From: Candidatus Fermentibacterales bacterium | Lineage (GTDB): Bacteria > Fermentibacterota > Fermentibacteria > Fermentibacterales > JAFGKQ01 | Reading direction: 5' to 3' | Length of the DNA stretch: 7,271 nucleotides | Assembly: GCA_016928495.1 (NCBI GenBank) | Contig: JAFGKQ010000295.1 | Span: forward strand, 1-7,271 | Shown here: positions 1 through 5,909 of the stretch, one piece after another | Numbering within the stretch: position 1 is the first letter of the stretch | How the letters are laid out: every line of letters begins with the position of its first letter | Made by a program: the position numbers and the translations under genes | The notes under the pieces: generated by a model | Told to the model about the DNA's origin: nothing | The model's input: the letters and a program-made list of their open reading frames with translations, nothing else | Databases searched by the model: none

Positions 1-427
1 GAGCGACAGCCGCCTGTCCGGGATCGAGGCTCACGAAGTTGCCGTAGTAGAAGGAGTGCAGGATGTCGTCATCGCGGACGTAGAGGTCGGGTCTCAGCCC
101 CTGTTCGGGTAGCTGGTCCACGAAGCAGAAGATGCATCTGTGCTTGCAGGTGCCCGGGGCCTGCCCGGACAGCACGAGGCCCCATTCCGCGCCTGGCTGG
201 CGGCTCAGGCGCAGATGCCGGACGATCCCCCCCCTTCGCTCCACCAGCAGGTCGATCCTGACCCGCCCGGAAGCGGCAACCGCGAAGCAGAGCCAGTCTT
301 CGACCCGCTCGCCGCAGCAAGCCATCAGCCTGTCACCCGGTCGGACTCCGGCTCGAGAGGCCGGAGAGCCCCGGGTGACCTTCAGAACGCGCGGGTGTGA
401 GGGGTGTGAAGCCCTGGGAGCGGCCAC
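1..427 (-). CDS. Radical SAM DUF512-family Fe-S protein with N-terminal PDZ-like domain (3' end outside window)
   Basis: The 5' part of a minus-strand gene (about 142 codons visible) that continues past the left edge. The first ~60 residues look PDZ-like: VTRGSPASRAGVRPGDRL near the start, then a strand-rich stretch. Around residues 102-109 comes a radical SAM-type cysteine cluster, CKHRCIFC, followed by FVDQLPEQGLRPDLYVRDDD and then SFYYGNFVSL. This matches the DUF512/COG1625 family, whose members pair a PDZ-like domain with a CxxxCxxC 4Fe-4S centre. Their reaction is not established as far as I know, so none is assigned. I chose GTG at 427 because it lies 8 bases after the upstream TPR stop, has GGAG (442-439) 11 bases ahead and leaves the PDZ-like part whole. 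CTG at 385 would sit closer to the usual family start and is possible. An internal ATG (M-A-C-C) would break the PDZ-like domain. It is probably cotranscribed with the TPR gene. The family call is strong; the start is less certain. Confidence 0.9.
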   Translation of the reverse strand, partial: MAAPRASHPSHPRVLKVTRGSPASRAGVRPGDRLMACCGERVEDWLCFAVAASGRVRIDLLVERRGGIVRHLRLSRQPGAEWGLVLSGQAPGTCKHRCIFCFVDQLPEQGLRPDLYVRDDDILHSFYYGNFVSLDPGQAAVA

Positions 428-435
428 CGGAGTCG

Positions 436-2307
436 CTACTCCAGACGCTCCTTGATCTCGGAGAGAACCGGGTCGAGATGCTTCGCGGCCTTCATCTCCT
501 GCGAGGCCTGGTGCGTTCTTCCGGTCGCCGCGTAGACCTTGGCCAGGTGAACGTGGAAGCCGACCAGGGCCTCGTGGTCCTTGCCGGCCAGGCTCATGCC
601 CTTCTGGAACTCCTCTTCGGCATCATCGTAGCGGTTGAGCTGGAAGAAGCAGCGGCCGAGCATCTCCCTCGCGCTCACCCGCAGGCTGGGGCACGAGAGC
701 ACCTGCTCGAACTCCGAGATCGCCTCCCTGAGGAGACCCATCTCCATGTAGGCTATGCCGAGATCGTAGTGGGTGGCGTAGTCCTCCGGCTTGACCGCCG
801 TGGCTATGCCCTCCCTGAACTCCCTGATCATGCCGGCAAGCGAACGGGCGGCATCCCTGTCGAACATCCGGTCGATGTCGGCCAGTATCGAAGCTATGTC
901 AGCGTACTCCTCGTCCTCCTCGAACGAGGGTCTGATGCCCTCCAGCAGGGTCCTGGCCATCTCGAAGCGAGGATCCGCCTCCACCGAGGCCTCGAGAGCG
1001 GCTATTGCCTCGGGCCTGCTCTCGTTGAGGAGGAAGGCGACCGCCAGTCGGTAGAGAGCCCTGGCCTGCCCCTCGGGGCCGTGGGCATGCCTGATCCTGA
1101 CCAGCTCCCTCGCCGCGGAAAGGGACTCCGGGCAGATGTCCAGGACTCCCTCGAGCAGCTCGAACACCATTCCGTCCCTGTTGCTCTGCCGGTAGACGTC
1201 GGCAGCCTTGAGGTAGGCCTCGACGGCTCCGTAGAAGTCGCCGATATCGATGAGGATGTTGCCGAGCTCGACGAATCCGAGGGCGTCGGTGGGGTTCCGG
1301 TCGAGCCTCCTGCGGAGGTCGGCGACCTGTCTCGAGAGAGCCTCCCGCACCTGACGGACCGAGACCAGCCCCATCTCCACGAGGACGTCGCCCAGCCTGG
1401 GACGGTCCTCCCGGTTGGCCTGCACCTCCAGTGCCCTCAGGACGTCGCTGGCCATGAGGAGGCCGTCCGCCACGAAGTACTCGCCCAGCCTCCTCCTCTT
1501 CGGGAGCTCCTCCTCGGCCTCCTCCTGGAGCTCCTCCTCGTCGAGGGCCAGCTCGTCGGTCTCCTCTTCGAAGGGCTCCGGCTCCTCCAGCAGATCCTCT
1601 TCCGCGATCTCCTCGAGCTGCTCCAGGTCGCTCTCCTCCGGTGCCGCAGCCGCGGACTCGAGCATGTCCGAGGAGTCGAAGTGAACGCTCTCGATAAGCC
1701 TCTCCTCCTCGGGAGACAGCTCGTCCGGCTCCAGCTCGGCCCGAAGCTCGTCGAGCATCCTCACGAGCTTCTGATGGTCCTTGTAGCCTCTCTCGGCAGC
1801 CATCGATACGCAGAGGTCCAGCATGCTCTCGTTCTTCTGCACGTAGGCGGCCCTGGCGAGGTGAGGCACCCAGGCGGGATTGTCGGGATCGAGGTCGATG
1901 AGAGCCCTGAGGGCAGCAAGGGTCTCGGAGGCCCTGATGTCCGGCTTGCTCTTGAGGAACCTGACGTACTCCTTGCGAGCATTGCCGTTCTTGGCCTGCT
2001 CCACGAAGCACCGCCCCATGAGGTAGTGTGCGTGGTCGAACTCCGGGTCGACCCTTATGGCTTTCCTCGCTACGGTAAGAGCCACCGCGTGCAGGCCGTC
2101 CTGCAGGTAGAGCTCCGCAGCGGTCACGAACTTGCCCAGCGCCTCCTCCTTGCGGTCCATCTTGAGCAGGACGTCGCCGATGCTGTTGTGCACGGACGCC
2201 TCCTCAGGATCGCTCTTGAGGAGTTGCTCGAAGGCACGGAGAGCGCTGTCCAGCCGCCCTTTCTGCAGAAGCTCGTGCGCCTTCTTCTTCAGGGAGACGT
2301 CGGTCAT
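436..2307 (-). CDS. TPR-repeat protein with central acidic linker and MshEN/T2SSE_N-like domain
   Basis: A 623-residue soluble protein with no signal peptide or membrane segment. Residues ~1-190 are helical TPR repeats (for example SALRAFEQLLKSDPEEASVH at 21-40 and AVALTVARKAIRVDPEF at 74-90). Residues ~191-268 are a very Glu-rich, low-complexity linker. Residues 273-296 and 304-327 are two 24-residue copies of the pattern RLG...GL...AL..Q, the signature of the MshEN (GSPII_E N-terminal) domain that in some type II secretion/pilus ATPases binds c-di-GMP. Residues ~335-460 and ~508-615 are further TPRs, the last (THYDLGIAYMEMGLLREAIS) resembling TPR tails in deltaproteobacterial-type proteins. 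No ATPase Walker motifs are visible, so it is not a PilB/GspE enzyme. A scaffold or adaptor role, perhaps nucleotide-responsive, is inference. The ATG directly follows the hutI TAG (TAGATG) with no good Shine-Dalgarno, which suggests translational coupling. The gene contains no TTA, CTA or TCA codon. Confidence 0.88.
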   Translation of the reverse strand: MTDVSLKKKAHELLQKGRLDSALRAFEQLLKSDPEEASVHNSIGDVLLKMDRKEEALGKFVTAAELYLQDGLHAVALTVARKAIRVDPEFDHAHYLMGRCFVEQAKNGNARKEYVRFLKSKPDIRASETLAALRALIDLDPDNPAWVPHLARAAYVQKNESMLDLCVSMAAERGYKDHQKLVRMLDELRAELEPDELSPEEERLIESVHFDSSDMLESAAAAPEESDLEQLEEIAEEDLLEEPEPFEEETDELALDEEELQEEAEEELPKRRRLGEYFVADGLLMASDVLRALEVQANREDRPRLGDVLVEMGLVSVRQVREALSRQVADLRRRLDRNPTDALGFVELGNILIDIGDFYGAVEAYLKAADVYRQSNRDGMVFELLEGVLDICPESLSAARELVRIRHAHGPEGQARALYRLAVAFLLNESRPEAIAALEASVEADPRFEMARTLLEGIRPSFEEDEEYADIASILADIDRMFDRDAARSLAGMIREFREGIATAVKPEDYATHYDLGIAYMEMGLLREAISEFEQVLSCPSLRVSAREMLGRCFFQLNRYDDAEEEFQKGMSLAGKDHEALVGFHVHLAKVYAATGRTHQASQEMKAAKHLDPVLSEIKERLE

Positions 2308-3678: not shown

Positions 3679-3936
3679 CTACTCCCCGACGGGTTCCACG
3701 CTCGCGTATTTCCGGCTTCCCCTGTCGTAGAACGAGACCCGCCCGTCAATCCTCGCGAAGAGCGTGTCATCGCGGCCCCTGCCGACGTTGGGACCCGGGT
3801 GGACGACAGTGCCCCTCTGCCTGATAATGATCGAGCCTGCCTGGACGATCCTGCCCGCGGAGGCCTTGACGCCGAGCCTTCTGCCCGCGCTGTCGCGTCC
3901 GTTCCTGGAGCTGCTGGAGGACTTCTTGTGAGCCAT
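3679..3936 (-). CDS. rpmA: 50S ribosomal protein L27 (bL27)
   Basis: An 85-residue basic protein of the large ribosomal subunit whose N-terminal arm reaches toward the peptidyl-transferase centre. It shows [48 protein letters not shown] and RKYASVEP, in the family order and at the normal length. Differences from common L27: the usual Gly/Ala-rich stretch after MAHKK is five serines (residues 6-10), the usual KRFGG is KASAG (24-28), and GRDHTLFA is GRDDTLFA. The ATG at 3936 is set by the invariant MAHKK; it has purine-rich AAAGGGAAGG upstream (3958-3949), with a 12-base gap that is longer than ideal. There is no Firmicutes-type cleavable extension. Its usual partner rplU (L21) is not next to it: the neighbours are a secreted peptidase and hutI. 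A small hairpin region lies in the 58-base gap in front of it. Confidence 0.97.
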
Positions 3937-5832: not shown

Positions 5833-5909
5833 CGGGGCGTAGCGCAGCCCGGTAGCGCACCTGCTTTGGGAGCAGGGGGTCGCCGGTTCGAATCCGGCCG
5901 CCCCGACCA
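5833..5909 (+). tRNA. tRNA-Pro (anticodon UGG)
   Basis: A 77-base full cloverleaf. The acceptor stem CGGGGCG (5833-5839) pairs with CGCCCCG (5899-5905), then discriminator A and an encoded CCA (5907-5909). The D stem is GCGC/GCGC (5842-5845 with 5855-5858). The anticodon stem CCTGC/GCAGG (5860-5864 with 5872-5876) encloses loop TTTGGGA with anticodon TGG at 5867-5869. The T arm is GCCGG/CCGGC (5882-5886 with 5894-5898) with loop TTCGAAT. The C1-G72 pair is typical of bacterial tRNA-Pro. It reads CCA and, by wobble, other Pro codons. It faces away from the peptidase gene and converges with the RCK gene, whose stop lies 25 bases beyond the CCA. Confidence 0.98.

Follow-up and report, generated by a model that had tools for sequence, protein, structure and literature searches.

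MshEN domains are known mostly as N-terminal regulators of secretion and pilus ATPases, and the locus described here raises the question of whether a TPR protein that carries two tandem MshEN-type motifs could act as a c-di-GMP receptor and, if so, what it would control. The window, by which we mean the whole analysed stretch of 7,271 nucleotides, encodes this protein on its reverse strand. A sequence-only reading had placed the motif pair at positions 1315-1500; the pair was found there, but its exact span is 1327-1491, so that the earlier interval overshot by about 10 nt on either side. The two 24-residue copies at residues 273-296 and 304-327 of the TPR protein proved exact to the residue in the translation, and both carry the RLG start, G-L at positions 10-11 and the ALxxQ end, with a separation of 7 residues. 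Their position between two TPR arrays, after an acidic linker, was likewise confirmed by Pfam, structural model and composition. The features of the gene are as follows.

436..2307, minus strand: TPR protein with an internal MshEN_N domain, 623 aa (translation, Pfam, orthologues)
1732..2307, minus strand: N-terminal TPR array, residues 1-192 (Pfam TPR matches; paired helices, pLDDT about 90)
1504..1683, minus strand: acidic linker, predicted to be disordered, residues 209-268 (pLDDT <50; D/E-rich; very variable among orthologues)
1420..1491, minus strand: MshEN motif I, residues 273-296, RLGEYFVADGLLMASDVLRALEVQ (translation, NF053729, motif scan)
1399..1419, minus strand: spacer, residues 297-303, ANREDRP (7-residue length fixed among orthologues, sequence free)
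1327..1398, minus strand: MshEN motif II, residues 304-327, RLGDVLVEMGLVSVRQVREALSRQ (translation, NF053729, motif scan)
1297..1359, minus strand: helix alpha4 of the bundle, residues 317-337 (DSSP on models; 4 residues separate its end from where the helices of the C-terminal TPR array start)
442..1284, minus strand: C-terminal TPR array, residues 342-622 (Pfam, model; conservation above that of the N-terminal array)

Several TPR models scored above their cut-offs in Pfam and were the only mutually coherent matches at that level, and the orthologues are likewise TPR proteins. In residues 193-268, which include the disordered linker, D and E make up 47% and K or R occurs once. The T2SSE ATPase domain PF00437 was not found in the protein by the Pfam scan. 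The protein is probably cytoplasmic, since no part of it is strongly hydrophobic (the Kyte-Doolittle mean over 19 residues peaks at 1.07). As a full-length query against the genome contigs it retrieved distant TPR matches only, and a fold search with the complete model was uninformative, yielding generic TPR proteins at low TM-scores. The pTM of the full-length model was 0.37, and the arrangement of its domains is therefore not confidently predicted.

The MshEN motif has the consensus RLGxx(LVI)(LVI)xxG(LVI)(LVI)xxxxLxxxLxxQ, in two tandem 24-residue copies. Both motifs of the TPR protein fit it, apart from Val at position 17 in each and a Phe in motif I at position 6. In shuffled versions of the protein, the published relaxed motif occurred 0.0007 times per copy, from which a rate of about 7e-9 was estimated for a close tandem pair; such a pair is therefore not a product of chance, and these rates together with the HMM result ruled out a chance origin. 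NF053729, the curated NCBIfam model of the MshE-related c-di-GMP motif, scored 42.9 bits on residues 273-327, above its cut-off of 38 (E 3e-11), and also matched all 29 orthologous segments scanned. When the 65-residue segment was compared with PDB sequences by phmmer, Thermus thermophilus PilF was found at 1e-9, with residues 303-358 (GSPII-C) as the best stretch, and MshE at 2e-5.

Structure prediction, one of the checks proposed earlier, gave a fold that matches c-di-GMP-bound MshE and PilF. The AlphaFold model of residues 262-345, for which 29 orthologues were used, had a mean pLDDT of 85.8 (92-97 over the motifs) and formed a four-helix bundle (helices 274-280, 286-298, 305-311 and 317-337). 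The best fold match of this bundle was c-di-GMP-bound MshE (5htl; Z 9.8, rmsd 1.8 Å over 59 residues), followed by c-di-GMP-bound PilF GSPII-B (Z 9.0-9.1) and PilB N-terminal domains (Z 7.1-7.3); the ten top entries were all MshE, PilF or PilB, and unrelated rows appeared from Z 4.8 down. In Foldseek the probability was 1.00 with a weak E-value of 0.03, as is to be expected of so short a bundle. Both copies are helical repeats within a TPR protein, and one could ask whether they are simply misread TPR repeats, that is, two extra TPR-like helical hairpins. This is extremely improbable: the isolated segment had no Pfam TPR match of any kind and NF053729 scored above its cut-off. The reading was rejected on the fold search, which returned MshE, PilF and PilB and not TPR proteins. 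The fold by itself would not suffice for the assignment, but the NF053729 match, the sequence similarity to PilF and MshE, the fold and a conservation focused on the consensus positions concur, and it is near certain that the segment is an MshEN_N domain.

One result seems at first to contradict this assignment. The sequence-only reading had proposed a search against the Pfam T2SSE_N/MshEN family and had named a missing match as grounds for refutation, and PF05157 was indeed not found in the TPR protein by the Pfam scan, so that formally the refuting outcome was obtained. It was, however, the wrong test. In the PilB-type ATPase of the host genome (contig C193), NF053729 matches nt 1864-2022, corresponding to residues 3-55, while PF05157 matches residues 58-142. 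PF05157, though named MshEN, thus models the second half of the domain, MshEN_C, and misses the TPR protein because this half, which follows the motifs, is what it describes; in the TPR protein, TPR helices follow the motifs directly, and the beta-containing MshEN_C is not present. The TPR protein carries MshEN_N, the ligand-binding half, alone. MshEN_N makes nearly all ligand contacts, and isolated VcMshEN 1-62, MshEN_N without MshEN_C, binds c-di-GMP at 0.35 µM, tighter than the complete domain (PMC5013675). Receptors with MshEN_N only would escape scans that rely on Pfam PF05157 alone.

Of 42 genomes analysed for the phylum, which belong to one order with three families, 39 contain an orthologue of the TPR-MshEN protein; one of the three genomes with no match is 94% complete. 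The motif pair is the best conserved region of the protein, with a mean column entropy of 0.53 and 0.57 bits in the two motifs, as against 2.62 in the spacer, 2.22 in the acidic linker, and 1.31 and 0.83 in the N-terminal and C-terminal TPR parts. Within the motifs, the consensus positions are conserved above the others (permutation p 0.006): no orthologue departs from Gly3, Leu21 or Gln24 in either motif, and only R or K occurs at position 1. A known strong c-di-GMP binder also has lysine at position 1 (PMC11731258). Other contact positions vary. At position 17, where the consensus Leu stacks on guanine, motif I has Val throughout and motif II either Val or Leu, the host protein having Val in both; of 29 relatives, 25 have Ile for Leu at position 2 in motif I, and motif II has another residue in place of Gly10 in 22 of 30 cases. 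These substitutions may lower the affinity.

The same substitutions, found in many relatives, would also suit a domain that has kept the MshEN_N fold and lost c-di-GMP binding, and XpsE proves that the fold can outlive binding; XpsE, however, lost eight key residues through radical changes (PMC5013675), and nothing comparable is seen in the TPR-MshEN proteins. Their motif contact positions are kept or conservatively changed, with Gly3, Leu21 and Gln24 invariant and R or K at position 1 while the spacer drifts freely, which argues against a dead domain and makes loss of binding unlikely. The host genome contains 14 GGDEF, 3 HD-GYP and 1 PilZ matches, so c-di-GMP is very probably made by the host. 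From the motifs and the predicted fold, we infer that the TPR protein likely binds c-di-GMP.

Comparison with known systems places the domain close to that of the assembly ATPases. Vibrio cholerae MshE (5htl) shares the two 24-residue motifs, the four-helix bundle and key residues, but its spacer has 5 residues instead of 7, and the TPR protein differs further in having Val at position 17 of both motifs, in lacking MshEN_C and an ATPase and in holding the domain between TPR arrays. In T. thermophilus PilF, the fold resembles GSPII-B, and the top sequence match is GSPII-C, which shows a 7-residue spacer in the alignment and Val17 in its second motif and has in addition a third motif; PilF, in contrast, is the assembly ATPase itself, with MshEN_C-type subdomains. 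Full-length PilF has two c-di-GMP sites, the weaker of which, at about 0.3-0.5 µM (324 nM), was assigned to GSPII-C (PMC11731258). The C-terminal T2SSE ATPase domain of GspE/PilB ATPases is absent from the TPR protein. Escherichia coli NfrB, a c-di-GMP-activated glycosyltransferase with a weak match to the segment, likewise bears an MshEN-type module on a protein that is not an ATPase, but it is a membrane enzyme with no TPR fusion. SgmX of Myxococcus xanthus, a TPR stimulator of type IV pilus formation, is similar as a multi-TPR protein; it is not known to carry an MshEN module, and NF052243 (SgmX) scored 57 bits on the TPR part against a cut-off of 1800, which leaves the TPR protein outside that family. 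SgmX acts with the GTPase MglA (PMC7519303).

What such a receptor would control was approached through its genomic neighbourhood, in which the following genes of the window were assigned.

2..427, minus strand: 5' part of a PDZ/radical SAM DUF512-type gene, cut at the contig end (remainder on host contig C222)
2308..3618, minus strand: amidohydrolase gene (Amidohydro_1; synteny), directly upstream of the TPR-MshEN gene and presumably imidazolonepropionase-like
3679-3930, minus strand: ribosomal protein L27 gene, between the M14 peptidase and amidohydrolase genes

The one-strand order M14 peptidase, L27, amidohydrolase and TPR-MshEN was found in all 19 relatives with long enough contigs, and the PDZ/radical SAM DUF512 gene comes next in 14 of these 19. 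The placement of the L27 gene is conserved across the phylum; in the window it stands apart from its usual L21 partner. A tRNA-Pro (TGG) gene at 5833-5909 (+) lies on the strand opposite to all assigned protein genes of the window. Beyond the radical SAM gene, relatives carry a histidine-kinase-like gene and then phosphomannomutase, MoxR and DUF58 genes.

The earlier reading had noted the absence of an ATPase. Neither the protein nor the window contains one, but the continuation of the host operon on another contig includes a gene for a PilT-family ATPase. The remainder of the radical SAM gene ends contig C222 (L133:5314-6156, minus strand); aligned with the protein of a relative, the window part covers residues 4-129 and the C222 part residues 135-402. 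Because one gene is split between them and synteny agrees, the two contigs, whose ends do not overlap, are probably neighbours. On the same strand of C222, genes for a PilT/PilU-family ATPase, a REC-like protein, a kinase-like protein and a phosphomannomutase adjoin the remainder. A PilT-family gene directly follows TPR-MshEN in two further genomes, G002 and G005, and a pilT-like gene belongs to the operon in these two and the host only, three genomes from three families. In other genomes the PilT-family genes are located elsewhere, and TPR-MshEN is mostly followed by the radical SAM or kinase-like gene only. A fast-evolving receiver-like protein of 550 aa (L133:2547-4202, minus strand; L060:9699-11348) was also seen only in the three genomes with pilT in the operon. 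The histidine-kinase-like proteins downstream (L133:1733-2644, minus strand; L060:11352-12164; L063:9995-10792) are conserved; by eye, their H-box apparently has no phospho-accepting His (RIGAEIRAPL, RIGISLRKPL), and they are possibly pseudokinases.

Considering all the above, we propose, as a reading somewhat better than even, that the TPR protein is a cytoplasmic c-di-GMP effector scaffold gated by MshEN_N, with type IV pilus control as the most plausible output. The MshEN_N four-helix bundle (residues 273-337) would take up one c-di-GMP, with one guanine per motif, and the two TPR arrays would hold partner proteins, with the acidic linker serving as a long flexible tether for the N-terminal array. 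The C-terminal array is fused to alpha4, the place of the MshEN_C subdomain in MshE and PilF; the ligand would close the bundle and reorient this array, switching partner binding. In PilF GSPII-B, the ligand unwinds alpha1 by one turn and changes the orientation of the subdomain that follows (PMC11731258), and such a reorientation would be a natural mechanism here since the C-terminal array takes the position of that subdomain.

A pilus output is favoured because the host operon also contains a PilT/PilU-family ATPase gene; it rests on three genomes, and type IV pili are perhaps what the scaffold acts on. The core gene order (M14 peptidase, L27, amidohydrolase, radical SAM, kinase-like, phosphomannomutase, MoxR) is kept across the phylum, with pilT joining the operon in three genomes only, which would fit a c-di-GMP scaffold whose output is tied to this operon instead, for example envelope or polysaccharide metabolism. 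We regard such an output as possible but rather unlikely, given that the core neighbours have mixed functions and could be transcribed together in relation to growth without sharing a pathway, whereas a pilT-like neighbour in members of three families is specific. A more daring form of the pilus-control reading, which we consider doubtful, is that MshEN_N, free of any ATPase, hinges two TPR arrays phylum-wide and binds the PilT-family ATPase in trans, gating pilus retraction.

MshEN fusions to REC, HD-GYP, CheA, kinases and others have already been published (PMC5013675). A TPR-MshEN fusion was not found in the literature searched, which covered PMC5013675 except its supplementary architecture table, nor in 149 genomes of another phylum (E 1e-9), a sample that does not exclude it elsewhere. 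MshEN_N segments in those 149 genomes belong to ATPases, DUF4388 proteins and chains of MshEN repeats. Two of these proteins, L100 and L102, combine DUF4388 (PATAN-type) with an MshEN_N-like motif pair, L100 having also a weak T2SSG-like match, and L101 and L103 are chains of several MshEN repeats in an open frame with no visible ATPase. If the proposed reading is true, this phylum-core protein, with MshEN_N set between TPR arrays, would bring scaffolding under c-di-GMP control and offer a case in which to test whether c-di-GMP acts on pilus retraction via an adaptor, not via the extension ATPase.
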